This document shows, piece after piece, positions 2,684 through 58,952 of a DNA stretch of 64,000 bases. The notes beneath the pieces were generated by a model. That model ran no database searches. It had not been told where the DNA came from and was given only the letters and a program-made list of their open reading frames with translations. Within the stretch, counting starts at the first letter, position 1. Each line of letters opens with the position of its first letter. Position numbers and translations under genes: made by a program. Location of the stretch: the NCBI RefSeq assembly GCF_007859935.1, contig NZ_SJPO01000010.1:62001-126000 (forward strand). Reading direction: 5' to 3'. This stretch comes from Posidoniimonas polymericola (GTDB taxonomy: Bacteria > Planctomycetota > Planctomycetia > Pirellulales > Lacipirellulaceae).

Positions 2684-3835
2684 CTAGTCTTCGGGGTAGT
2701 CGTTGCGAGAGAGCCCCCGTTCCCAGCGACCACTGGCAGCCGCGAGAGTCGCCAGCATAGCCAATGCCGAGCCGGCCGGCTCGGGGACGCCGACATTGGG
2801 GCTGACGGTGACGACCGGTTCGCTGTCGTTGCAGTCGCCGTCGAAGGCGCCGGCGTTGACCTCGATCGCGCCAAGATTGACCAGTCCGCCGCCGGGGTTG
2901 TGGACGATCTCGACCCGGCCGGCGCCGCCGCAGCCGGCGGCGCCAACACCAAGGCCCATGCCGCTGCCGCCGTCGCCCCCGTTGGCCTCGATCCGTGTCG
3001 CCGCGTCGAGCGAGAGCGACCTGGCGTGCAGCAGGATCGCGCCGCCACTGCCCCCGCCCCCGTCGGCAAACCCAAGCGAGCCATTGCCCCCGTTCGCCAG
3101 GATCGTGGCGCCGCTGAATTCCATCGTGGCAAGGGCCCCAATCTCGAGCGCACCGCCGCCGGCCCCACCGCCGCCGCCGTACCGCATCACCCCCTGGCCG
3201 CCGCCTCCCCCGCCGCCGCTGCCGGCGAAGAGCTGGCCGCTGAGCGGATCGCCATAGGGCAGTCCGCCGGCGCGGATCGTCACGCCCACTCCCCCGTCTC
3301 CGCCCGCGGTTCCAAAACCTGCTCCCGAACCCGAGCCGACGCCGCTGACCGAGGCGCTGTTGGATCCAACGACGCCGTGCCCCGGCCCCACGCCGTCTTG
3401 GTTTGAACTGAACGGACCGCCGTGGCCGCCGCGTCCGCCGCCTGCGACGCCGGAGCCGCCGAGGCCGGTCACGGCCTGCTGCACGGCGTCCACTCCGTTG
3501 GAGCCGCTGACATCGATCGAGCCGGCCAGCGTCACCGAACCGCGGAACAACAGCGCCAGCGGATTGCTGCCGGCGACGGTAATGGCGTTCCCGGCAGCGA
3601 GCGTGCCGCCGCCGTCGAACGAGAACACCGCGATGTCCGGGGCGCCGCCCCCCTGGGCGAACAGCACGCCGCCGGGCGCCCCGCCGAAGGTCAGCGCGTC
3701 GGTGTCAATCGTGAACCCACCGGTGGGCAGCGAGCCGAGCGATGCAAAGTCGAGCGGGTTTAGCGGCGCCGAGCGACTGACACCGCCCAGCGAACTCAGC
3801 AAGAAGATTGCGGACAGCGTGACCGTGCGATTCAT
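2684..3835 (-). CDS. glycine-rich PEP-CTERM sorted secreted protein
   Basis: A 383-residue secreted protein. It has a signal peptide (residues about 1-23), a long Gly/Ser-rich body with many GGGG-type runs (about 140-310), and a C-terminal VPEPAGSALAMLATLAAASG segment followed by a basic stretch. This is the PEP-CTERM sorting signal recognised by exosortases, so the product is probably exported and anchored or released at the cell surface. The start is fixed by AGGAGG read on the minus strand just upstream (around 3842-3847). The low-complexity body resembles surface or autotransporter-like beta-helical proteins, but no catalytic motif is visible. Two paralogous NPYQSP genes flank it on the opposite strand. 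Confidence 0.8.
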   Translation of the reverse strand: MNRTVTLSAIFLLSSLGGVSRSAPLNPLDFASLGSLPTGGFTIDTDALTFGGAPGGVLFAQGGGAPDIAVFSFDGGGTLAAGNAITVAGSNPLALLFRGSVTLAGSIDVSGSNGVDAVQQAVTGLGGSGVAGGGRGGHGGPFSSNQDGVGPGHGVVGSNSASVSGVGSGSGAGFGTAGGDGGVGVTIRAGGLPYGDPLSGQLFAGSGGGGGGGQGVMRYGGGGGAGGGALEIGALATMEFSGATILANGGNGSLGFADGGGGSGGAILLHARSLSLDAATRIEANGGDGGSGMGLGVGAAGCGGAGRVEIVHNPGGGLVNLGAIEVNAGAFDGDCNDSEPVVTVSPNVGVPEPAGSALAMLATLAAASGRWERGLSRNDYPED

Positions 3836-4352
3836 CTTAGCAGCCTCCTGAAAGGGACAGAGAAGTCGCTGCAGCAAGAGAACTCGTAACGTGTCGTGGA
3901 GCGGGGGAGCGTCTGCGGGCGTTGAGACGCCAGGCGAAGCGACACCCCACCAGCAGCAGGTTGTAAGCGATTGGCCAGGCAGAGTCGACCAACCGCGGCG
4001 TCGTCGCCGCGTTCGACGAACCGTTTGGGTCGCTTGCGTCCGACTCTGGCCTGAGCGCAGGCAGAGCGACACAAACCCCATGGGTGGCAGGCGTTAGGGA
4101 CCGCAGCAGCAGCGGGTGAGACCCGAGGAAATGACATTGCCACCGCGTTCCAGGAACCGATTTTTGTCCGGCATTTTTCGGGGGCGACGCGGACGATGTT
4201 GGCGCCGATCCTATCGCCACCGCAGACCCAGGCGGCATTCGTGCCCTTTCGCGCCATTTCGTGGCTACCTAGACTGACGGCGTCCTGCCCTTGGTAACCC
4301 GGCAACCTTGGTGGCCCCGCCCGTTGCTGTTTGTCCCTCGCCCCCGGTCGTC
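3836..4352. other. gene-free gap upstream of the PEP-CTERM gene and the second NPYQSP gene
   Basis: This 517-base divergent gap must hold the promoters of both neighbours. It contains the AGGAGG ribosome site for the minus-strand gene. A copy of the TTTTGTCC motif occurs at about 4162-4170. Several open frames cross it on the minus strand, but their translations are rich in Arg, Ser and Pro, have no domain signal, and look like chance frames in GC-rich DNA. No clear -35/-10 pair was identified. Confidence 0.4.
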
Positions 4353-4910
4353 ATGACGCGTTCCGACAACCCCTATCAGTCGCCCAGCGTCGCCGCCGAC
4401 CCGCCGGTCCCGCGGGCGGCGCTGTGGGACCGCTTCTCGGTGGTTGGCTGGCCGGTGGTCTACGCGTTGAACATTATTGTGCCCTTGATGTTCGGTTGGG
4501 GCATGACGGAGCAGGCAGGGCGGGTCGGCATGTTTGTGGCCATGGCGGTCGTGCTCGCAGGCGGGTGGTGGCTGGCGCCGCGGCATGCTTGGGTCGGCCG
4601 ACGGTTGATTGTGGGGGCCGTGATCACGGCCCTCTCGCAGGTCATCCCGATCCTGCACATTTATATTGGCATGGCGTCGATCGCGATTGTCACCAGCGTC
4701 GGCAGCCTTGTCGCCGGTGAGCCGCTCGACGCCCCCTTGAGCGGCCCACTCCGCAGCGAGACCGCCGGCTTCGCCGTGACGGTGCTGGTCGGCGGCAGCC
4801 TGATTGTTTGTTCGCTCGTGTTCGGCCTGGTGCTCGGCCTGCTGCTGCCAAGGAAGTGGATGATGCCGGGCGAAGATTGGGCCGTCGACGCCGGCGATAG
4901 CCGTATCTAG
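4353..4910 (+). CDS. NPYQSP-type small membrane protein, paralogue of the 2081-2626 gene
   Basis: A 185-residue protein with NPYQSP at residues 6-11 and four hydrophobic segments (about 30-50, 56-75, 85-115 and 140-168), ending in LLPRKWMMPG and an acidic tail. The segment spacing and the motif VGAVITALSQVIPILH match the paralogue 1.7 kb upstream, so the pair arose by duplication. The ATG at 4353 is chosen because it directly precedes the conserved NPYQSP opening. The role is unknown. The fold suggests a small integral membrane protein with the N-terminus in the cytoplasm, but topology was not computed. Confidence 0.75.
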   Translation: MTRSDNPYQSPSVAADPPVPRAALWDRFSVVGWPVVYALNIIVPLMFGWGMTEQAGRVGMFVAMAVVLAGGWWLAPRHAWVGRRLIVGAVITALSQVIPILHIYIGMASIAIVTSVGSLVAGEPLDAPLSGPLRSETAGFAVTVLVGGSLIVCSLVFGLVLGLLLPRKWMMPGEDWAVDAGDSRI

Positions 4911-4942
4911 CAACACGACTCGCAATTGGGAGACGCGGTCCA

Positions 4943-5419
4943 TTGAAATCACAGTTTCAGCGGTCGTTTCGCTACGACGCCTGGGCCAACTCTCGAGTGA
5001 TCGAGTCCCTGGCCGCCACGCCCGCCGCGTCGGACGAGGCCCTGCCGCTGCTGGCTCACCTGCTGGCCGCCGAGCATATCTGGTTCTGTCGGCTCACCGG
5101 CCGCGCGGCCGAACACGAGGTGTTCCCTAGCCTAACGCTCGACGCGTGTCGGCGGCTTGCCAACGCGAACACGGCCGGCTACGCGGAGTTGCTTGCCCAA
5201 GCGACCGACGATTGGCTTCAATCGCCCGTCGCCTACCACAACGCGGCGGGGCTGCCCTTCGAGAACCGTGCGGCCGATATCCTGACGCACGTCGTTACCC
5301 ACGGGCCCTACCACCGCGGGCAGATCGCGAAGGCGATCGGCCGCAACGGCGGCCAGCCTACGCCGACCGATTACATTGTGTTTGCCCGAGAGCAGGACGG
5401 CGGACCCCCAGTCCTCTAG
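4943..5419 (+). CDS. DinB-like four-helix metalloprotein
   Basis: A 158-residue DinB/YfiT-superfamily protein. The superfamily binds a divalent metal through three histidines. Here they are readable as H45 in LLAAEHIW and H120 and H124 in THGPYHRGQ. Members are metal-dependent thiol transferases or stress proteins of mostly unknown substrate. The start is a TTG at 4943, with GGGAGACG around 4928-4935 as a plausible ribosome site. It begins 32 bases after the second NPYQSP gene, so co-transcription is possible. It is followed closely by a degraded metallo-beta-lactamase remnant. Confidence 0.85.
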   Translation: MKSQFQRSFRYDAWANSRVIESLAATPAASDEALPLLAHLLAAEHIWFCRLTGRAAEHEVFPSLTLDACRRLANANTAGYAELLAQATDDWLQSPVAYHNAAGLPFENRAADILTHVVTHGPYHRGQIAKAIGRNGGQPTPTDYIVFAREQDGGPPVL

Positions 5420-5439
5420 AAGGGGAGCGAGTTTGCCCG

Positions 5440-5640
5440 ATGCACGACGACATCCTCCAAGTCCGGGAGCCGGCGCTCAACTTCTATGTCCTGCGTGACC
5501 CGGCCGGGCTCTACTTGATCGACCGTCGGTGGTCGCTCGCTGCGGCGGCTGCGCGTGCTGGCGGGCAGGTATTCTGCGGCCGGGTAGGGCGGTCGGCGCC
5601 GTGGCGGAGTCGTCCATGGCGTCAGACGAGGCCGGCGTCT
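5440..5640 (+). pseudogene. remnant of a metallo-beta-lactamase-fold gene (N-terminal part only)
   Basis: The reading frame from the ATG at 5440 begins with an ALNFYVLRDPAGLYLID stretch, which resembles the first two beta strands of MBL-fold hydrolases. After LID the expected Gly-Gly is lost in this frame. A plus-one shift near 5524 restores a plausible VGGRSLRRLRVL continuation, which then meets a TAG near 5585. The metal-binding HxHxDH motif is absent. An SD-like AGGGGAG lies at 5421-5427. I read this as a truncated and frameshifted remnant. A short unrelated 95-codon gene using the unshifted frame to 5727 is the alternative. Confidence 0.4.
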
Positions 5641-5692
5641 AGGATGGTACGGGTTGCCTTAGGCGGTTTCACCCTCGCTGAGAGTATCCCAG

Positions 5693-6490
5693 ATGTGGAT
5701 GGAGACCTCCTGTTCACTGGCGTTTGAAACGCCGGTGGCGACGCCCTTCTTGCTAATGCTGCGGCCCCGCAGCGGCGCCCAGCAGTGGATCGCCCGTGAG
5801 CAGTACGTGCTGACGCCGAGCGTGCCGGCGGTCGAGTTCACCGACCAGTTCGGCAACCTCTGCCAGCGGCTGGTCGCGCCGGCCGGCAGGTTTTCGATCC
5901 ACACGTCGGCAGACATCGAGGCAGCCGACTTCACCGACACCGCGTACGGCGCGCCGTTTGTCGAGGTGCAGTTGCTGCCCGACGCCACGCTGCCGTTCCT
6001 GCTGCCGAGCCGGTACTGCGAGTCCGACCGATTCAGCCAGATAGCTTCCTCGATCACAGCCGGCTTTACGCCGGGGTACAACCAGTGCGCGGCGATCGTC
6101 GACTACATCCGCGGCGCCCTGCAGTACGTGCCGGGCGCCGGCCAGGACATTATCAGCGCCGCCGAAGTGAACCAGCGGTCGCAGGCCGTGTGCCGCGACA
6201 TGGCCCACCTCGGGATTGCCCTCTGCCGCGCGCTGTGCATTCCGGCCCGGATGGTCGTGGGCTACCTCGAGGCGCTCCAGCCGATGGACCTGCACGCCTG
6301 GTTCGAGGCCTACGTCGGCGGCCGCTGGTACACGTTCGATCCTACTCAGGGGAGCCCCTGCGGCGGCCGCGTGGCGATCGCCTACGGCCGCGACGCCGCG
6401 GACGTGGCGATCTACACCCAGTTCGGCGACCCGGTCGAGCTGGTCGGCATGACGGTACGGGTCGAGCGGCTCAACGCGGCGCCGGTGTGA
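5693..6490 (+). CDS. transglutaminase-like family protein
   Basis: A 265-residue protein with an N-terminal beta-sandwich region (about 1-115) and a C-terminal transglutaminase-like core. The catalytic triad is visible: C167 in [13 protein letters not shown]201 in [13 protein letters not shown] and D216 in WYTFDPT. This is the bacterial transglutaminase/protease-like family whose members act on proteins or peptides in the cytoplasm; the substrate is unknown. There is no signal peptide. The ATG at 5693 gives the usual [16 protein letters not shown] opening of such proteins. No partner gene is obvious. Confidence 0.85.
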
Positions 6491-6631
6491 TCCGGCTGTA
6501 GTAAGCTTGTGAGCGTGTGCGGGCGCACGGTAGATTGGTGCGTTGCGTACGTAAGACCTCCCTCGCTAGTCCGGGGCGCCAATTGCAGTTTGGCGACAAG
6601 TCCGCCGCTCAACCCGAGGACTCGCCTCATC

Positions 6632-6922
6632 ATGCCCGATCCCAAGTCGCTCCGAATCGGTGACCGCATCCGGATCCTGCGTGTTCCGCAGTGTGACTTG
6701 AAGCAGCGCGAACGAGAGCTTTCCGAGAACACGGAGCTGGCCGGATGGACGGCCGACACGATTGAACGGATCATCGAGCAAACGCCAGTCGTCAGTGTCT
6801 CGCGGATCGATGAAGACGGGTCTGTGTGGTACGACACATCAATCGTTGGTCGCGATGGCTGCGAGGAACAGCATTCCCTGATCGTGTACGAGGACGATAC
6901 CTGGGAGCGTTTGGCTACGTAA
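6632..6922 (+). CDS. small hypothetical protein
   Basis: A 96-residue acidic, soluble protein without signal peptide or membrane segment. It opens with a KSLRIGDRIRILRVP motif, like small beta-barrel proteins. It contains ELAGWTADTIERIIEQ and ends in an SLIVYEDDTWERL stretch. The balanced composition and well-formed alternating pattern argue for a real gene. I do not recognise the family and assign no function. The ATG at 6632 is the first start that avoids an Arg/Ser-rich leader. An AGGACT just upstream (about 6617-6622) is a weak SD. Confidence 0.65.
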   Translation: MPDPKSLRIGDRIRILRVPQCDLKQRERELSENTELAGWTADTIERIIEQTPVVSVSRIDEDGSVWYDTSIVGRDGCEEQHSLIVYEDDTWERLAT

Positions 6923-7146
6923 GTTGAGCAGCACGCCGGCCCCGCTGAGATCAACGGGGACCCTGCTGGCGTCTACTACCGTGGGTTCCACCGACTGGGC
7001 CCGCCGCATCAACCCGCATCGTCGGCAGGCCCCGGACGCGGTTTTTCGGCACAATCGTCCCAGCCGATTCGACAACCGCGGCCCGTACCCCATACTTCAG
7101 CGCACTGTGCGTTGTCACGATTCTGGTCTTTGGGGACACGCTGACC

Positions 7147-7734
7147 ATGTATTTTCTCTACGGATCCCGGCCCTTCGGCAAGGTCGATGAGATCGAGGGC
7201 GTCGGGCACGTCGCCACCGAGTTCGGCCACTTCTTCTGGTTCCCGCTGGTCCCCAAGGAGTCGCTGCTCGTCCTCAGCGAGAAGTGGAACCGGGTAGAGG
7301 GCATCCCGATCCGGATGTCGATGAAGTCGGTTGGGTTCGCCTACGCTCGCGCCGTGGCGTTCGTGTTCTTCTTGGCGGCGTTCGGCTCGGCCAAGGCCCT
7401 GTTCGCACCCGAAGCGGGGCAGGACCTCGCGCCCGAGCGGATCAACAACATGTGGGCGATTATGCTGATGGGCGCCGTTGCGCTGCCGGCCCTGATAGTC
7501 AGCTACACCGCGTGGATCACCCAGGCCGACTACCAGACCGCGGTCTCGCTGGTGTCGGAGGCCGGGCTCGGACCCGAGGTGAGGGCGCTGGTCGACGCCG
7601 CGTACGGCGCGACCGGGCAGAGCGTGCAGGCGTCGGCAATCGTTGGCGGCGCCCAGCTCCAGAGCGCGGCGCCCGGCGCCGACGATTGCAACCTCGAGTC
7701 GGCCAAGTACCTCAAGCAGTACGCCGACGTGTGA
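7147..7734 (+). CDS. hypothetical membrane protein
   Basis: A 195-residue protein that opens with a YFLYGSRPFGKVDEIEGVGHVATEF region resembling the N-terminal beta hairpin of planctomycete membrane proteins with a zinc-ribbon-like start, although no cysteine pair is present. Two membrane segments follow (about 61-82 and 100-120) and then a soluble Ala/Gly-rich tail. The start ATG at 7147 is preceded by GGGGAC at 7134-7139. Function is unknown. A soluble cytoplasmic role for the tail is a guess. Confidence 0.7.
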   Translation: MYFLYGSRPFGKVDEIEGVGHVATEFGHFFWFPLVPKESLLVLSEKWNRVEGIPIRMSMKSVGFAYARAVAFVFFLAAFGSAKALFAPEAGQDLAPERINNMWAIMLMGAVALPALIVSYTAWITQADYQTAVSLVSEAGLGPEVRALVDAAYGATGQSVQASAIVGGAQLQSAAPGADDCNLESAKYLKQYADV

Positions 7735-7887
7735 GGCGTCGGCAATACGCCTACCCCGCCTGGACATTGGCCGGTAGAACCGCGCCCCAGCTGGCGGCGT
7801 GGCTGTCTGGCGCCGCAACTACCTAGACTCGGCCGGACGCATCCCTCTACAATCCGCGTGCGGGCAAGGGAGTGTATCGAGGGACGC

Positions 7888-8313
7888 ATGCCATTCCGGA
7901 AAGACCGATTCCTCGCTAGTCTCAAGCGGTGCCGGGAGTCCGAGCGCTTCGCCCACGAGTTCTACGCGCGGCTGCGGGCCAAGGACGACGCGATCCGCGA
8001 TCGCTTCCGCTTCACCGACTTCGAAACGCAGGTCAAGAAGTTCAACGAGGCGCTCGATATCTGCGTCGACGCTACCGAGGGGAAGCAGGAGGCGCTCGCC
8101 CGCCTGCGGGAGCTGGGCGTGACGCACGACATCGACCACCACAACATCCTGCCGGATTGGTACGAGCTGTGGATCGAGGCCCTGCTCCAGACCGCCGAGG
8201 AGAGCGACCCCCAGTGGAACGCCGAGACCGCGGCCGCCTGGCGGAGTCTGCTAGAACGCATCACGGGCCGGATGGCGTCGTTCTACCTGCCGCCGGGCCA
8301 CCCTGGCCGGTAG
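7888..8313 (+). CDS. single-domain globin-like protein
   Basis: A 141-residue all-helical protein resembling bacterial single-domain globins. The stretch LARLRELGVTHDIDHHNILPDWYELWIEALL (residues about 70-100) has the F-helix/G-helix pattern of globins, with H80 the likely proximal haem ligand and nearby H84/H85 as alternatives. The FEKVR-like start of the family corresponds to FLASLKRCRESERFAHEFY here. Globins of this type bind O2 or NO. The ATG at 7888 follows GAGGGACGC, a good ribosome site. The gene ends only 3 bases before the stop of the convergent acyl-CoA dehydrogenase. Confidence 0.7.
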   Translation: MPFRKDRFLASLKRCRESERFAHEFYARLRAKDDAIRDRFRFTDFETQVKKFNEALDICVDATEGKQEALARLRELGVTHDIDHHNILPDWYELWIEALLQTAEESDPQWNAETAAAWRSLLERITGRMASFYLPPGHPGR

Positions 8314-8316
8314 CTT

Positions 8317-10275
8317 CTACTGAGCGGGTGGGGCGTACTTCTGCAAAATCTCCTGTCCGCAGATCTCCTCGAGCCCGGGGAACGCCCCTGCGGAAACCTG
8401 GGCCCCGAGGCCGGTGACCTGCTTGAAGTACTGGTTGCTCGGCCGGCGGCCGTCGAGCTTCTGACGCAGCTTCTGGCACAGCAGGTCGGCCGAGACGCGG
8501 ACCACCTCGTTCTCCTGCCGGGCGGCGTACATGCTGGTCGCCAGCATGGTGATCAGGTCCTGGCAGCGGCCGGACAGCTCCGCCATGCGGCACTGGCGGT
8601 CGGCCAGCTTGAGCTGGAACTTCTGCATCGCGCCGTCGATCTCGAGGGCGGTGGCGGTGAGCTTCTCGCACGCGTACTCGGCGTGGCCGCGGAGCTCGGA
8701 CGGCATGCCCGGCAGGTTCGGCTTCGAGCCCCTCATCAGCTTGCGGCCAATCAGCCACTTGAGGTACGGCATCGCGACCGGAGCCAGCTTCAACGCGTGC
8801 GCCGGGTTCAGCGGGTTGGGCCGCTGGATGCCCGCCGCGGCGAGCGCCTTGCCGACCGGCTCGAAATAGGTCTTGCCGTGGCGCTTGACCAGCGACTTGA
8901 AGAACGCCATGCCGAGCATCTCCCCCTCGCCCTCGTAGATGCAGGGGGCGAGGAAGTCGTGCACGTTGTCACCGAAGGCGTGCCCGTGCAGGAATGAGCG
9001 GCCGCCGTGGGTCTTCATGTACAGCTCGATCGCGGCGTGCTTCATCGACTCGCTGCCGAAGATCTTGGCGATGATGCACTCCATCTCGCCGCGGTAGCCG
9101 CGGTCCAAGAGGTCGCTGCACCAGGCCACGAGCGCGTCGCAGCCGACGATCAGGCCGGCCATCTCGCCCAGGCGCCTCTGCACGAGCTCGCGGTGGGCGA
9201 TCGGCTCGCTGTAGGTCACGCGGAAGTGGGCCCACGGGATCATGTCGGCCATCATCTGCCGCATCGTGCCGGCCGCGTTTGCGCACAACGAAACCCGCCC
9301 CAGGTTCAGCCCGTGGTAGGCGATGGTCAGCCCGTCCCCCTTGACCGGCTTCAGCAGGTTCTCTTGCGGGACGCGGAAGTTGTTGAACACGATGCCGCGG
9401 TTGTAGAGCCGCGCCAGCGCGTGGATGCCGTACTTCTTCAGCTGGAACTGCTCGTTCTCTTCGGCCGGCAGGTCGACCACCAGCACGGCCGGCTTGTCGT
9501 CGACCAGGCAGACCAGGCCGATCGTCCTGCCGGGCACGACGTTCGAGATGAACAGCTTCTCGCCGTTCACCACGTAGGAGTCGCCGTCGAGCACGGCCGT
9601 GGTCCGCAGCGCGGTGAGGTCGCTGCCGGCGCACGGCTCGGTCAGCGCGAAGGCGCTCAGCCGGCTGCCGTCCGCCAGCCCGGGCAGGAACCGCTGCTTC
9701 TGGTCGGCGTTGCCGAAGGTCTTGACCGGGTCGACCGCGCCGATGCAGCCGTGGATTGAGGCCAGGCCGGCGATCGTGCCGTCGAGGGTCGCCATCCGGG
9801 CGAGGAACGCGGCGAAGCTGCTGAACGAACAGTCGCTGCCGCCGAACTCTTTGCCGACTAGCAGTCCCCAGTAGCCGACGCCCGCCAGCTCCTGCAGGAC
9901 CTCTTCGCGGGTCTTGCCCTCGTCGTTGAGCAGCGTGCCGGCCTGCTTGTGCCGGCTGACCACGGCGATGGAGTCGTCCATCACCTTCTGGACCTCGGCC
10001 GGCGTCTTGGGGGGCGTGCTGAGGAACTCGTCGGTCGGGACCGAGCGGTCCCACACCGCGCGGTGGGCCGGGCTGTTGACGGTCTGGTACTGGGCGGCGA
10101 ACAGCTGCTCGACCTGGTCGTCGGCGGTGTCGATGGCGCCAGTGCGGCGGGCCTCGTCGTCGGACTTGCCGCCGAGCTTCAGCGCGGTCTCCGCGAACGA
10201 CTCGACGTGCTCCGCCGCGGATTGTGCTGCGGGCGCGTGGTGGTCGGTGCCGGGGTCTTGCAGATCGGTCGCCAT
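8317..10275 (-). CDS. acyl-CoA dehydrogenase family flavoprotein with long C-terminal domain
   Basis: A 652-residue acyl-CoA dehydrogenase, longer than the usual 380-residue form. The core (about 95-465) carries the FAD/substrate signature FALTEPCAGSDLTALRTTA near 208-227 and the IYEGEGEMLG motif near 446-455 with E448 at the usual catalytic-base position. The extra 180 residues are helical, as in very-long-chain type or VLCAD/ACAD9-like enzymes. It would oxidise acyl-CoA to enoyl-CoA in fatty acid degradation. The ATG at 10275 follows GGCGGAG (minus strand). Upstream lie a TATACT -10-like hexamer (10314-10319) and a 12-bp palindrome. No other beta-oxidation gene is adjacent. Confidence 0.88.
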   Translation of the reverse strand: MATDLQDPGTDHHAPAAQSAAEHVESFAETALKLGGKSDDEARRTGAIDTADDQVEQLFAAQYQTVNSPAHRAVWDRSVPTDEFLSTPPKTPAEVQKVMDDSIAVVSRHKQAGTLLNDEGKTREEVLQELAGVGYWGLLVGKEFGGSDCSFSSFAAFLARMATLDGTIAGLASIHGCIGAVDPVKTFGNADQKQRFLPGLADGSRLSAFALTEPCAGSDLTALRTTAVLDGDSYVVNGEKLFISNVVPGRTIGLVCLVDDKPAVLVVDLPAEENEQFQLKKYGIHALARLYNRGIVFNNFRVPQENLLKPVKGDGLTIAYHGLNLGRVSLCANAAGTMRQMMADMIPWAHFRVTYSEPIAHRELVQRRLGEMAGLIVGCDALVAWCSDLLDRGYRGEMECIIAKIFGSESMKHAAIELYMKTHGGRSFLHGHAFGDNVHDFLAPCIYEGEGEMLGMAFFKSLVKRHGKTYFEPVGKALAAAGIQRPNPLNPAHALKLAPVAMPYLKWLIGRKLMRGSKPNLPGMPSELRGHAEYACEKLTATALEIDGAMQKFQLKLADRQCRMAELSGRCQDLITMLATSMYAARQENEVVRVSADLLCQKLRQKLDGRRPSNQYFKQVTGLGAQVSAGAFPGLEEICGQEILQKYAPPAQ

Positions 10276-53052: not shown

Positions 53053-55086
53053 TCAGACCTCGCACGGAGCTGCTGGCGAGGGAAGCATAAACCTCGCCTG
53101 ATCGTCCAGTTTGGTGCGGCAGAAGGCCTCGAAATCGGCGGCAGGCAGCGGCTTCGACATGAAGTAGCCCTGACCGTAGTCGCAGCCGAGGTCGCGGATC
53201 TTGACGAGCTGCTGGTAGGTCTCGATCCCCTCAGCGACGACCTCGAGCTTGCCCGCCTGAGCGATCATCACGACCGCCCAGATCGTCGTCGCGCTCTCGA
53301 CCTCCTCGAGCAGGTTGTTGATAAAGCTGCGGTCGAGCTTGATCGTGCTGAACGGCAGCGAGTGCAGGATGCTCAGCGAAGAGTAGCCGGTGCCAAAGTC
53401 GTCCAGGTGGACGGCGACCCCCAATTCCTGGAATCGGGCCGTGATCTCACGCACGACATTGAGGTTGTCCATCGAGCCCGACTCGGTGATCTCGAGCGCC
53501 AGCGCCTGCGGATCGAGTTGGTAGCGGCTGATGGTCTTCTCGACCGTCGTCACGATGCGGTCCGACGTCAGTTGCCGCGGCGACAGGTTGACGCTCACCT
53601 TAAGGTCCGCCAGCGCCGGTTCGTGCTTGCGCCACTCGGCGATTTGCCGGGCCGCCTCGTCGAGCACGATCGCGCCGATCTGCTCGATCATGCCGGTCTC
53701 TTCCGCGACTGGGATGAAAAGGTCCGGCGGCTGCATGCCGCGCGTGGGGTGGTTCCACCGGACGAGCGCCTCGGCCTTGGCGAGCCGGTTGTCCTGCAGC
53801 GAAATAATCGGCTGGTAGAAGACCTCGAACTCTCCGTCGCGGATTGCCCGTCGGAGCTCAAACTCGAGGTCGAGCCGCTCGGTAACGCGGTCGCGCATGG
53901 CCTGGTCGAACACCGCACCCTGCCCCTTGCCACCCTCTTTGGCGTGGTAGAGGGCCGTGTCGGCGTCGCGGAGGATCTCTGCGGGGTCGTCGTACTCGCC
54001 GCTGCTCACCGCGATACCGATGCTGACTCCCAGCACCAGCTCGTTGTGCTCGACCGACATCGGGCCGGACATCGCCTCACGCACCTGGGCCGCCACGGCG
54101 TCCGCGTGGCCGGCCGACGGCAGGTCGTCCAGCAGGATGACGAACTCGTCACCCCCTAGCCGGGCGACCGTGTCGTAACCCGCCCGGACCCCAACCGCGG
54201 CCCCGCGGAGCGTGTTGCTGAGTCTCCGTGAAGTCTGCACCAGGAACTGATCGCCGATCCTGTGGCCCAGGCTGTCGTTGATCAGCTTAAAATTGTCGAG
54301 GTCGCAATAGAGGATGGCGAACTTGTGATCGGGGTTCCGCTTGCTCCGCTCGATGCAGCCCTCGATCCGCTCCAGCAGCAGCACCCGGTTCGGCAGGTCG
54401 GTTAGCGAGTCGTGGAACGCCAGGTGGCGGATCTGCTGGTCCGCCATGTGGCGGGCGGCGATCTCGCGGGCCAGACGCGAGTTGGCCTCGGCCAGCGACT
54501 CGACCTGGTCCTGCAGGCGGGTGTTGGCTTCCTGCAGCTGCTCAGAGCGGGCGCGGATACTGTCCTCGAGCACCCTGGTGTGGGCGTGCGCGAGTCCGGC
54601 TAGGTTCCACTTCTCGGTGAGCGAGCAGGCCAGCTGCTGCACCTCGACCACGTCAAACGGCTTCTTCAGGATCAGCAGCCAGTCGCCCGCCCCGACTTCT
54701 TCCAGGATGTTCTGCCAGGAGTAGTCGGAGTACGCCGTGCAGATCACGACCTGCAACTGCGGATCAACCTTGCGGCACTCGACGATCGTGCGGAGTCCAT
54801 CCCAGCCGGGCGGCATCCGCATGTCGATAAACGCCAACGCGTAGGGCCGACCTTCTGCGACGGAGCGCTGGACGGCCTGGAAGCCTTCTTCGCCCTGCAG
54901 CGCTGAGTCGATCTCGTACTTCCGCTGGAAGCTCATCCGCTGCTGCGTGGTGTTCAGCAGCGACGCCGCCAGGGTGTCGAATTCCGCGTCGACTTCCTTC
55001 GCTTCGAGGATAGCGCGGATATCGTCGTGGATCGCCTGGTTGTCGTCGACAATCAGAACCCGCCGGTTATCGTTGTCGATATTCAT
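53053..55086 (-). CDS. response regulator with GGDEF and EAL domains
   Basis: A 677-residue protein. Residues 1-140 are a receiver with phospho-site D88 in ALAFIDMRMPPGWDG and with a large insertion before it; a coiled coil follows (about 170-225). The GGDEF domain (about 230-395) has an intact ARLGGDEFVILLDD; the canonical I-site RxxD was not found. The EAL domain (about 410-660) has AEALVRWNHP, LHLDDFGTGYSSL-type and YFMSKPL motifs, all with catalytic residues. It may make, degrade or both c-di-GMP. It is divergent from the receiver gene at 55510 and shares its unusual receiver signature. Confidence 0.93.
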   Translation of the reverse strand: MNIDNDNRRVLIVDDNQAIHDDIRAILEAKEVDAEFDTLAASLLNTTQQRMSFQRKYEIDSALQGEEGFQAVQRSVAEGRPYALAFIDMRMPPGWDGLRTIVECRKVDPQLQVVICTAYSDYSWQNILEEVGAGDWLLILKKPFDVVEVQQLACSLTEKWNLAGLAHAHTRVLEDSIRARSEQLQEANTRLQDQVESLAEANSRLAREIAARHMADQQIRHLAFHDSLTDLPNRVLLLERIEGCIERSKRNPDHKFAILYCDLDNFKLINDSLGHRIGDQFLVQTSRRLSNTLRGAAVGVRAGYDTVARLGGDEFVILLDDLPSAGHADAVAAQVREAMSGPMSVEHNELVLGVSIGIAVSSGEYDDPAEILRDADTALYHAKEGGKGQGAVFDQAMRDRVTERLDLEFELRRAIRDGEFEVFYQPIISLQDNRLAKAEALVRWNHPTRGMQPPDLFIPVAEETGMIEQIGAIVLDEAARQIAEWRKHEPALADLKVSVNLSPRQLTSDRIVTTVEKTISRYQLDPQALALEITESGSMDNLNVVREITARFQELGVAVHLDDFGTGYSSLSILHSLPFSTIKLDRSFINNLLEEVESATTIWAVVMIAQAGKLEVVAEGIETYQQLVKIRDLGCDYGQGYFMSKPLPAADFEAFCRTKLDDQARFMLPSPAAPCEV

Positions 55087-55115
55087 AGTTGGGTTGGTTT
55101 CGGTGCGGCGTCTGG

Positions 55116-55130
55116 GGCCCATAATGGGCC
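55116..55130. promoter_or_regulatory. 15-bp palindrome upstream of the GGDEF/EAL gene
   Basis: GGCCCAT-A-ATGGGCC is perfectly symmetric around a central A, 30 bases upstream of the GGDEF/EAL start codon. It contains a possible -10 (CATTAT on the minus strand). It is a candidate operator for a regulator of this gene; which one is unknown. Confidence 0.35.
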
Positions 55131-55509
55131 AATCGCCAAAGTCGCTGGTGGCCGTAGTGCTTTCTGAACTTTAGCCCTAGGCGCCGCGCCCTACGCGGAC
55201 GCTGTCGCCGTAGTTGCCACACGGTCAATCGTTCCCAACGGTCGTGCCGTGTTTGTCGGCGTGGGGGCTCCATTTCTGGCGGGGGGACGCCAAGGGAAGC
55301 CGCCCCCCAACTGCGGGCGCCGCTTGGAGGTCGCCGCGGCCGCTGCGTATAAGCCGAAGCCGAGAAGTTGGTGGGATGCCGTTGCTTGCACTAAGGGGCG
55401 CCGATGTTGTTCTAGCATTGTCCGGTCAAGGCGAATGGCCGCCCGACGGAAGGGCCACCGCCGACCGGGCGGGAGGACGGCTTACAAACGGATGAAAGGT
55501 AATCAGACC
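55131..55509. other. divergent gap between the two response regulator genes
   Basis: No gene was recognised in these 379 bases. Open frames that extend upstream from the second regulator are Arg/Trp-rich and without domain. The region must hold promoters for both regulators. GC-rich stretches near 55295-55345 resemble no known element. Confidence 0.35.
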
Positions 55510-56406
55510 ATGCAAGATGTCAGCGATCCACACTCGGAAGATCAATCTCTGACGACGCCGACCGACGAAAACCGGCGCGTGCTGCTGATCGACGACAACC
55601 ACGCGATCCACGACGACTACAACAAGATCCTCGTGCCCGCCCGCGACAGCGGCGAGCTCGACGAGCTGGGGTCGTTGTTGTTTGAGGACGCGGCCCCGAG
55701 CCGCGGACCGGCAATCGGGTTCGAGACCACCTCTGCCTACCAGGGGCAAGAGGCGCTGGCGATTGTCGAAAAATCGGTGGAAGATAACCGCCGGTTCGCG
55801 ATGGCCTTTGTCGACATGCGGATGCCGCCCGGCTGGGACGGGCTCGAGACCATCAAACGCATGTGGGAGGTCGACGAGGAACTTCAGGTAGTGATCTGCT
55901 CGGCGTACTCCGACCACAGCTGGAACGAGCTCGTCGACGAGCTCCCCAAAGACGACCAATGGCTCCTATTGCGCAAGCCCTTCGACGGCGCCGAGGTGAG
56001 CCAGCTGGCGCTCGCCCTGACGAAGAAGTGGAGCCTCGGCCGCGAGACCCGCAAGAGCCTCGCCCAGCTGAGGGAGGCGCTCGGCGAACGCGAGCAGCTG
56101 CTTGACGCGCTAGGGAGTTCCACCGAACGCATGTGCAGCGAGTACGGCAAGATCGCCGAGCACATCGAGAGCTCTTTCCACGCCATCGAGGTGCTCACCC
56201 GCGCCTACCAGAGCCTTGACGAGGCGGCCACTCCCGAGGGCGTGCCCGCCGCGGCGTGGACAGCGGCCGCACAGCAGGTCGAGGCCGCCTCGCCCCAGGG
56301 CGAGATGGCCGAAACCCTAACCACCGCCCGCGCCACCCTAGATTCCTTCAAGAAGATCAACGCAACCGTCGCGACTATGCGGGAGAAGGCAGGGGTAGGG
56401 GGCTAG
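55510..56406 (+). CDS. response regulator with coiled-coil C-terminus
   Basis: A 298-residue protein. The receiver (about 20-165) has phospho-site D102 in AMAFVDMRMPPGWDG and the Lys in LLRKPFDG. The rest is helical, with a likely dimerising coiled coil (about 175-240) and Ala-rich tail, and no DNA-binding motif. Start ATG at 55510 follows AAAGG near 55495-55499; another ATG lies at 55492. The stretches NRRVLLIDDNHAIHDDY and LQVVICSAYSDHSW are nearly the same as in the GGDEF/EAL protein, so both may take phosphate from the same kinase. Confidence 0.82.
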   Translation: MQDVSDPHSEDQSLTTPTDENRRVLLIDDNHAIHDDYNKILVPARDSGELDELGSLLFEDAAPSRGPAIGFETTSAYQGQEALAIVEKSVEDNRRFAMAFVDMRMPPGWDGLETIKRMWEVDEELQVVICSAYSDHSWNELVDELPKDDQWLLLRKPFDGAEVSQLALALTKKWSLGRETRKSLAQLREALGEREQLLDALGSSTERMCSEYGKIAEHIESSFHAIEVLTRAYQSLDEAATPEGVPAAAWTAAAQQVEAASPQGEMAETLTTARATLDSFKKINATVATMREKAGVGG

Positions 56407-56618
56407 CCCCGCGTAGTTGCCGCAGACGGTTCCCCGATACGAATCTACGAGCGAGAGACAACACCCCAAAGGACGATCCCGATCTTACCCAGGCAGCAGC
56501 CAGTAGAATGGACGCCTCAGCCGTGCCCGAACAGCATAGTGTCGGGCGTGCGCTACAGTTCATTCCCAGCGGCGTCGTCCGACGCCAGGTGAAACGACGG
56601 TAGGCCCACGCGACGAAG

Positions 56619-57263
56619 ATGGAATTGACCGCCCACGCATCCAAGAACACGCACCAGAAATGCCGGGCCGGCAGCGTTCGGATCGGCGCCTGCCTGCGTC
56701 CGCTGGTTGGCTCGGTGTTGGTTGCGGCTGTCGTGCTTGGCGGGGCCGAGCGGGCAACCGCCCAGGCGACGGCCCCCGCGGTCGTCATCAACCGCGAGTA
56801 CACCATCAAGGCGGCCTTTCTCTACCACTTCCTCACGTACACCGAGTGGCCTTCGTCGGCGGACGCCAACGGGCCGCTGGTCGTGGGCGTCTACAAGTCG
56901 GACCCGTTCGGTGAGGTGCTCGACAAGATCGCCGCCACCAAGAAGGTCAACAACCGCTCAATCGAGGTGCGTCGGATCTCCGACCCCGCCGAGTCGCTGC
57001 ATTGCCACCTGTTGTTCGTCCCTGACACGGTGACGGCAGACGGGCTGGCGCCACTCTTCGCGGCCGTCTCCGAACAACCGGTGATGCTGGTCGGCGAGAC
57101 CGAGGGGTTCGTCGATCGGGGGGGGGCGGCAGAGTTCTACCTGGAGGGAAACCGGGTTCGTTTCGCGTTCAACATGGACGTCGTGGATGAGAAGAACCTC
57201 AAGGTGAGCTCTAAGCTTCTGTCTCTAGCTAAGATTGTCACCGCGGGCCAGGCCAGCAAGTAG
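56619..57263 (+). CDS. YfiR-like periplasmic protein
   Basis: A 214-residue protein with an N-terminal hydrophobic export segment (about 28-50) followed by a YfiR/DUF4154 domain. NREYTIKAAFLYHFLTYTEWP near 57-77 and FYLEGNRVRFAFNMDVVDEKNLKVSSKLLSLAKIV near the C-terminus are characteristic. In the YfiBNR system, YfiR binds and silences the diguanylate cyclase YfiN from the periplasm. Here it precedes a histidine kinase by only 15 bases, which suggests that the kinase is its partner. The start ATG at 56619 leaves a long polar leader, so the true start may lie later. Confidence 0.82.
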   Translation: MELTAHASKNTHQKCRAGSVRIGACLRPLVGSVLVAAVVLGGAERATAQATAPAVVINREYTIKAAFLYHFLTYTEWPSSADANGPLVVGVYKSDPFGEVLDKIAATKKVNNRSIEVRRISDPAESLHCHLLFVPDTVTADGLAPLFAAVSEQPVMLVGETEGFVDRGGAAEFYLEGNRVRFAFNMDVVDEKNLKVSSKLLSLAKIVTAGQASK

Positions 57264-57278
57264 AACGGCGAGAATCCG

Positions 57279-58952
57279 ATGCGTCCTTTGTCCGACATGT
57301 CAATCCGAACCAAGTTGATGCTGCTGACCATGCTGGCGGTCGCGACGGCGATGTCGGTGGCGTGCACGGCCTTCGTCGCGAACGACGCCAGGCTGATCAA
57401 GGAGGACATGGCCCAGCAGCTCTCCGCGTTGTCCCAGGTGCTCGGCGCCAACACCACCGCCGCCCTCAAGTTCATGGACGCCGAGTCCGCCGAGCAGCTG
57501 CTCGGGTCGCTGGAGATGCAGCCGATGGTGACCAGCGCCGCGCTCTTTGAAGCCGATGGTCAGGTTTTCGCCACCTACCCGGCCGGCCGGGAGGAAGGCC
57601 CGCTGGCCGACGAGATCGGCACCCTCCACAACCACGACGGCCAGATGGTGGTCACCACCGAGATCACCGAAGACGGCGACCCCGTCGGCGTGATCGTCGT
57701 GCGGGGCGACCTCAACGTGCTGAACCAACAGCTGCTGCACTACTCCTACATCGTGGCGGTAGTGCTGCTGGTGTCGTTCGCGGCGGCCTACCTGCTAGCC
57801 TCTCGATTGCAGGGCGTCATCTCGGGACCGATCCAGGGCCTGACCGCCGCGGCCCACCGCGTCTCAGAGAACAACGACTACTCGATCCGGGTCTCCCGGC
57901 CGGGCAACGACGAGCTCGGCGACCTGTGCACAGCGTTCAACCACATGCTCGACGAGATCGAGGCCAGCAACGAGGCGCTCTCCAAAGCCCACGGCGAACT
58001 CGAGGCCCGCGTCGCCCAACGCACGCACCAGCTCTCCGAGACCAACGGCGAGCTCAACAAGGAGATCGTCGAGAGGAAGAAAACGGAGGAGAAACTCGAG
58101 CAGGTCCACCGCGAGCTGGTCGAGTCTGCTCGCCGGGCCGGCATGGCCGAGGTGGCGACCGGCGTGCTGCACAACGTCGGCAACGTGCTCAACAGCGTCA
58201 ATGTGTCGGCGACCATGATCACAAACCAGCTCGGCTCGTCGAAGGTGGCGCAGCTGTCCAAGGTGATCGACCTCATCGACGAGCACCAACGCGACCTTGG
58301 CGAGTTTGTCACGCGGGACGAGAAGGGCAAGCAGGTGCCCCGCTTCCTGCGGGTGCTGACCGACCACTTGGTGACCGACGAGCAGTCGCTGCTAGACGAG
58401 GCCCGGTCGCTGATCTCGAACATCGAGCACATCAAGACGATCGTCTCGACGCAGCAGTCGTACGCCAACTCCGGCGGCCACGTCGAGACGACCGACGTCA
58501 ACGCCATCATGGACGACGCGGTGAGGCTCAACTCGGCGTCTTTCGGGCGGCACGGCATCGAGGTGGTTCGCGAGCTGGACGAGGTTCCCGACGTCCTGCT
58601 CGACCGGCAGCGGGTGCTGCAGATCGTGATCAACCTCGTCAAGAACGCCAAGGAGTCGCTGGTCGAGAAAGAGGGGCAGCCCAAGCGGCTCATCCTCCGC
58701 TCGGCAACCGAGGACGGCCGGCTGGTGCTGCAGGTCAAGGACACCGGGCAGGGAATCTCTCAAGAGAACCTGACCCGCATCTTCTCGCACGGCTTCACCA
58801 CCAAGAAGTCGGGGCACGGCTTCGGGCTGCACAGCTGCGCCAACTCGGCCACCGAGATGGACGGGGCGCTCACCGTCACCAGCGACGGGGTTGGGAAGGG
58901 CGCCACGTTCACGCTCAACCTGCCGCTGAAGCCGGCCGGCGTCGCCGTCTAG
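57279..58952 (+). CDS. membrane histidine kinase with YfiN-like (CHASE8) periplasmic sensor and HAMP
   Basis: A 557-residue sensor kinase. TM1 is about 11-33, then a periplasmic domain (about 34-152) resembling the CHASE8 sensor of YfiN (DARLIKEDMAQQLSALSQVLGANTTAALKFMD). TM2 is about 155-176 and HAMP about 177-232. A coiled coil follows, then an H-box with H298 in GVLHNVGNVLNSVN and an ATPase domain with NLVKNAKESL, DTGQGIS and SGHGFGLHSC. The kinase would sense through the YfiR-like neighbour. Start ATG at 57279. Confidence 0.9.
   Translation: MRPLSDMSIRTKLMLLTMLAVATAMSVACTAFVANDARLIKEDMAQQLSALSQVLGANTTAALKFMDAESAEQLLGSLEMQPMVTSAALFEADGQVFATYPAGREEGPLADEIGTLHNHDGQMVVTTEITEDGDPVGVIVVRGDLNVLNQQLLHYSYIVAVVLLVSFAAAYLLASRLQGVISGPIQGLTAAAHRVSENNDYSIRVSRPGNDELGDLCTAFNHMLDEIEASNEALSKAHGELEARVAQRTHQLSETNGELNKEIVERKKTEEKLEQVHRELVESARRAGMAEVATGVLHNVGNVLNSVNVSATMITNQLGSSKVAQLSKVIDLIDEHQRDLGEFVTRDEKGKQVPRFLRVLTDHLVTDEQSLLDEARSLISNIEHIKTIVSTQQSYANSGGHVETTDVNAIMDDAVRLNSASFGRHGIEVVRELDEVPDVLLDRQRVLQIVINLVKNAKESLVEKEGQPKRLILRSATEDGRLVLQVKDTGQGISQENLTRIFSHGFTTKKSGHGFGLHSCANSATEMDGALTVTSDGVGKGATFTLNLPLKPAGVAV

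Follow-up and report, generated by a model that had tools for sequence, protein, structure and literature searches.

Four genes at positions 53053-58952 of the window, by which we mean the whole 64,000-nucleotide stretch of a Posidoniimonas polymericola contig that was analysed, probably form a signalling unit built of two known modules, in which a kinase gated by a YfiR-like protein would phosphorylate two response regulators and thereby adjust the c-di-GMP balance. We put the probability of this reading at roughly three in four, on the basis of the gene content, domains and motifs of the locus, the uniqueness of its motifs in the genome and the conserved association of each half of the unit across genomes. 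In the textbook system, YfiR acts directly on a c-di-GMP enzyme. At the present locus, in contrast, the sensor beside the YfiR-like protein ends in a histidine kinase rather than in GGDEF, and the c-di-GMP enzyme, which carries a receiver domain, is encoded separately.

Components of the locus

The gene for this enzyme, here called regulator A (53053..55122, 689 aa), lies on the minus strand, and the other three genes lie on the plus strand, all four being where the initial annotation placed them. Regulator A is a NarR-like REC-GGDEF-EAL protein with Pfam matches to Response_reg, GGDEF and EAL; it retains the GGDEF (position 323) and EAL (position 451) signature motifs in full, with an RxxD inhibitory site that departs from the canonical form. 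Across an intergenic region (55123..55509) from which the two regulator genes diverge, as they also do in a same-genus genome, is the gene for regulator B (55510..56406, 298 aa), which has the same type of receiver followed by a long helical tail. Both receivers carry the acidic pair, the phospho-acceptor (D100 in A, D102 in B), the T/S residue and the lysine (K153 in A). A scan of 55000-57400 for sigma-70 promoters and terminators gave no usable operon signal: the intergenic region held no convincing sigma-70 site, and the one sigma-70-like site in the scan fell within gene A (mean in shuffled sequence, 0.3). The genome as a whole, which is 6.26 Mb and 97% complete, gave 4 EAL, 12 GGDEF and 9 HD_5 domain matches, and two of its proteins match GGDEF and EAL strongly at once, regulator A being one of them.

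The initial annotation had described nearly identical stretches in the two receivers, and these are exact in alignment (NRRVL..DDN.AIHDD, DMRMPPGWDGL and VIC.AYSD.SW), with 46% identity overall. A DNA-level search of the 6.26 Mb genome finds MPPGWDG at two sites, in regulators A and B, and a profile built from the two receivers plus relatives scored them at 313 and 307 bits, with no other receiver of the genome above 31 bits. We could rule out that the likeness reflects mere common receiver motifs, because the receiver that ranks after these two scores about ten times lower. Each receiver is approximately 68-75% identical to its ortholog in the congener, compared with 46% between A and B, which implies that the duplication predates the genus and that the kinase-facing motifs common to both have been retained ever since. 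That regulator B is without an output domain was borne out by Pfam, which reports Response_reg only, and by AlphaFold and Foldseek. An HPt domain or a known output domain in its tail was considered and rejected: Pfam reports none, AlphaFold models the tail as an 80-residue helix and a helical hairpin, the best Foldseek matches are to the receiver, and in the congener the tail is poorly conserved, with a receiver that is 75% identical. Regulator B probably acts through its receiver, as a phosphate sink or modulator.

The YfiR-like gene (56619..57263) stands 15 bases ahead of the kinase gene, as first described, the gap being 57264-57278. Its periplasmic product matches DUF4154 (PF13689; E 1.6e-39, 135.7 bits with a Pfam cut-off of 24.9), in agreement with its proposed identity, and the NCBIfam family NF053591, 'TOL_0243 family YfiR-like' (141.6 bits with a cut-off of 125). 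The sequence-only match to the PDB was weak (E 0.05), and the YfiR identity was therefore settled by fold comparison, in which the best 15 Foldseek matches of the AlphaFold model were all solved P. aeruginosa YfiR, including 4zhu/4yn7, with TM scores to solved YfiR of 0.78-0.82 by target length. The Foldseek matches also included substrate-binding proteins with a related fold (8wgl, 3lft). The hydrophobic positions at which YfiR contacts YfiN are conserved, and V180, F182 and L203 align with interface residues at PAO1 YfiR positions 160, 162 and 183. The four conserved YfiR cysteines are absent from the protein, C129 being the sole cysteine of its mature part; in P. aeruginosa YfiR, the cysteine pairs confer a redox response.

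The kinase (57279..58952) consists of a transmembrane segment, CHASE8, a second transmembrane segment, HAMP, an LHNVGN H-box with His298, and HATPase, as placed by Pfam, NCBIfam, hydropathy and motif positions. Its sensor had been called YfiN-like, and the CHASE8 profile gives a clear match (E 9.3e-16), accompanied by HAMP (1.5e-10) and HATPase_c (4.7e-20); the Pfam search found no GGDEF, also as had been proposed. The NCBIfam model for YfiN scores the kinase at 103 bits, below its cut-off of 325, and NF053592, 'sensor histidine kinase, YfiR-like protein-associated' (HK_near_YfiR_like), scores it at 207.5 bits with a cut-off of 194. Pfam reports no HisKA-type dimerisation domain in the kinase, the LHNVGN H-box lying outside the Pfam HisKA types. 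This box has a single DNA-level occurrence in the genome, in the kinase, and the transmitter scores 605 bits compared with 58 for the next best match.

Associations across genomes

The receiver type and the LHNVGN transmitter are found together in many phyla. When loci were centred on the receiver, an LHNVGN kinase was present in 73 of 80, the other seven being mostly cut by contig ends. Among 392 Planctomycetota genomes, with three candidate kinases scored per genome, the transmitter occurs in 54, the receiver in 60 and both in 52 (Fisher 1e-53, uncorrected for kinship), and 49 of the 69 LHNVGN kinases of this phylum have a receiver within 3 kb, on the same strand in every case (49/49). The YfiR-like protein follows a different partner. 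In 40 Planctomycetota regions centred on YfiR it is nearly always beside a CHASE8 kinase, mostly of HisKA type and in many cases a hybrid, and among 108 LHNVGN kinases it adjoins 12 of the 13 with CHASE8 and none of the 95 without. YfiR thus tracks the CHASE8 sensor and the regulators track the LHNVGN transmitter, which makes the locus in the window the meeting point of both modules. The initial annotation had tied the regulators to both neighbours; the tie to the kinase stood, the kinase being retained with the receivers, and the tie to the YfiR-like gene is weakened by most genomes, in which that gene is absent from loci with the regulators. Exchange of modules accounts for this pattern better than a spurious link does. 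On a tree of the 108 transmitters the CHASE8 label changes at least 7 times, but none of the starred branches requires more than 1, and a single origin of the CHASE8-LHNVGN kinases is narrowly rejected (AU test p = 0.040), so that repeated assembly of these kinases is favoured, though not proven.

The full route recurs. A same-genus genome (G042) preserves the whole four-gene block in synteny. At two gammaproteobacterial loci (L049, L053), genes for a receiver without an output domain, for YfiR, for a kinase of the CHASE8-LHNVGN type and for a REC-GGDEF-EAL protein stand side by side, the GGDEF-EAL gene of L049 coming directly after the kinase gene. A further locus (L158, genome G100) joins YfiR and the kinase to a REC-HD-GYP protein, which is another class of c-di-GMP enzyme. 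The output is a REC-kinase or REC-PAS protein in approximately half of the remaining CHASE8-LHNVGN loci (G003, L041, L079, L080, L093 and L108), from which it follows that these kinases often, but not necessarily, signal through c-di-GMP.

Some YfiR-like genes are found in other settings. In one genome (G350, locus L155, 6493-8984), YfiR and a CHASE8-LHNVGN kinase stand apart from the matching receiver, which adjoins other LHNVGN kinases elsewhere. Another locus (L174, G395:C1:3942000-3957000, at 3481-9708) has three YfiR-like genes at intervals of about 2.8 kb, and a CHASE8 HisKA kinase was detected beside the last one only. At two loci (L147, 9045-11708; L175, 1-2244) the YfiR-like domain lies in very long frames of 888 and 748 codons, which may be fusions or long upstream open frames.

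Proposed mechanism and alternative readings

In the signalling unit that we propose, the YfiR-like protein would bind the periplasmic CHASE8 domain and hold the kinase in one state, and a periplasmic signal would alter YfiR occupancy. The kinase would then autophosphorylate at His298 of the LHNVGN box, and phosphate would pass to Asp100 of regulator A and Asp102 of regulator B. Phosphorylation would be expected to shift regulator A between c-di-GMP synthesis and degradation, by analogy with NarR towards less synthesis and more hydrolysis, a sign that is itself inferred, and regulator B would most likely compete for phosphate or modulate its partner. The suggestion that one kinase serves both receivers holds in silico: the sole LHNVGN box and the sole two MPPGWDG receivers of the genome are all at this locus, so that one kinase for both is the simplest reading. 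Some observations count against the model. The gene for regulator A is on the strand opposite to the kinase, while elsewhere the nearest receiver is co-directional; the YfiR-like protein is without the P. aeruginosa YfiR cysteine pairs; and the c-di-GMP output is not obligatory. A more specific form of the model is a branched phosphorelay, in which the YfiR-gated kinase feeds both the GGDEF-EAL enzyme and a tailed, output-less receiver acting as gain control, and which arose more than once by swapping of YfiR and CHASE8 onto LHNVGN kinases; this we hold tentatively, at somewhat less than an even chance.

The orientation of the genes raises the possibility that the kinase drives mainly regulator B, which lies upstream of yfiR and is co-directional with the kinase, as partner receivers are in other genomes, and that the divergent regulator A is phosphorylated by another kinase or never, the likeness of the two receivers being due to descent from one duplicated gene. 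We consider this unlikely. The genome has no other transmitter of the LHNVGN type to serve regulator A, GGDEF-EAL receivers of the MPPGWDG type adjoin an LHNVGN transmitter in many phyla, and the duplication antedates the genus, the kinase-facing motifs having been kept since. The divergent pair is, moreover, kept in the congener, and in L049 it is the GGDEF-EAL gene that directly follows the kinase. That the neighbourhood is accidental, with the YfiR-CHASE8 kinase serving a distant regulator and standing beside an unrelated c-di-GMP regulator, would be in keeping with most Planctomycetota YfiR-CHASE8 kinases, which are of HisKA type, many of them hybrids, with no such receiver nearby. However, the LHNVGN transmitter is the type that pairs with the MPPGWDG receiver, and unrelated genomes have the same combination, making an accident very improbable.

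A separate question is the sign of the periplasmic input. The substrate-binding proteins among the Foldseek matches and the missing redox cysteine pairs would suit a YfiR-like protein that acts as a ligand carrier and activates the kinase, with a logic inverted relative to YfiBNR. Set against these are the top 15 fold matches, all to YfiR, and the retention of the hydrophobic positions that contact YfiN, so that we regard activation as a possibility of some weight but rather doubtful.

Relation to known systems

The locus is a new combination of two separately known parts. It shares with YfiBNR/TpbB of P. aeruginosa (HmsCDE in Yersinia) a YfiR-fold protein beside a CHASE8-HAMP membrane sensor, with the hydrophobic contacts kept. 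Unlike YfiBNR, it has no gene for a YfiB-like OmpA-like lipoprotein among the flanking genes checked (MraZ, DUF1844, CTP synthase, PfkB kinase, KDPG aldolase and LptF/G), and its YfiR-like protein is without the disulfide cysteines. YfiN-like sensors that end in histidine kinases and are encoded beside YfiR were described by Malone et al. 2012, who proposed a modular YfiR-YfiN core (PMC3375315). The pair of YfiR and a CHASE8 kinase seen in the window is of the kind found in those systems and in NF053591 and NF053592, the cut-offs of which both window proteins pass; main-text passages of the 2012 paper (PMC3375315) say nothing of the transmitter type, of response regulators or of a path back to c-di-GMP. 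The description of the locus as rewired, which came with the initial annotation, thus suggests more novelty than there is, YfiR/CHASE8 kinases having been on record since 2012 and carrying NCBIfam names. We found no literature report of a closed route from YfiR through a CHASE8 kinase to a c-di-GMP response regulator, and a search on YfiR, histidine kinase and Planctomycetes returned nothing.

If the proposed unit is correct, the same periplasmic repressor module reaches c-di-GMP in two ways, by direct allostery in YfiN and by phosphotransfer here, and the modularity proposed for the Yfi core could be tested with a clean pair of systems. LHNVGN and MPPGWDG would then define a transmitter-receiver family whose partners, including many unassigned c-di-GMP regulators, are predictable from sequence across phyla.

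The second half of the locus resembles NosP-NahK-NarR, which supplies a published precedent for phosphotransfer within this kinase-receiver family. According to reviews and citing papers (PMC11237717, PMC8846402, PMC8738867), NO-bound NosP activates NahK, and phosphotransfer to NarR is accompanied by lower diguanylate cyclase and higher phosphodiesterase activity, with a fall in c-di-GMP. Two Legionella loci (L101, L115) encode a FIST protein, an LHNIGN kinase and a REC-PAS-GGDEF-EAL protein, the layout of nosP-nahK-narR, and judging by gene order and domains are likely to be nahK-narR. In both the L. pneumophila system (Lpl0330/Lpl0329) and the window, an LHN(V/I)GN kinase adjoins a GGDEF-EAL enzyme whose receiver is of the MPPGWDG type. 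The inputs differ, however, being a FIST-domain NO sensor with a soluble PAS kinase in the one and a periplasmic YfiR with a membrane CHASE8 kinase in the other; no NosP-type FIST protein is present among the genes checked at the locus, YfiR and CHASE8 standing there instead. The window also has two receivers where Legionella has one, and its output protein is without PAS. The HnoX-HnoK-HnoB/HnoD system of Shewanella, as outlined in PMC8846402, likewise links a kinase to a c-di-GMP enzyme and an extra modulating protein, but there HnoB is a phosphodiesterase and HnoD its inhibitor, whereas the second regulator of the window has only a helical tail.

Arrays with more than one receiver are also seen in Pseudomonas, where most of the loci (L047, L057, L058, L094, L103, L113 and others) combine an LHNVGN kinase with a REC-kinase and a tandem pair of REC-GGDEF-EAL genes, a single LHNVGN kinase being accompanied by up to three matching receivers.
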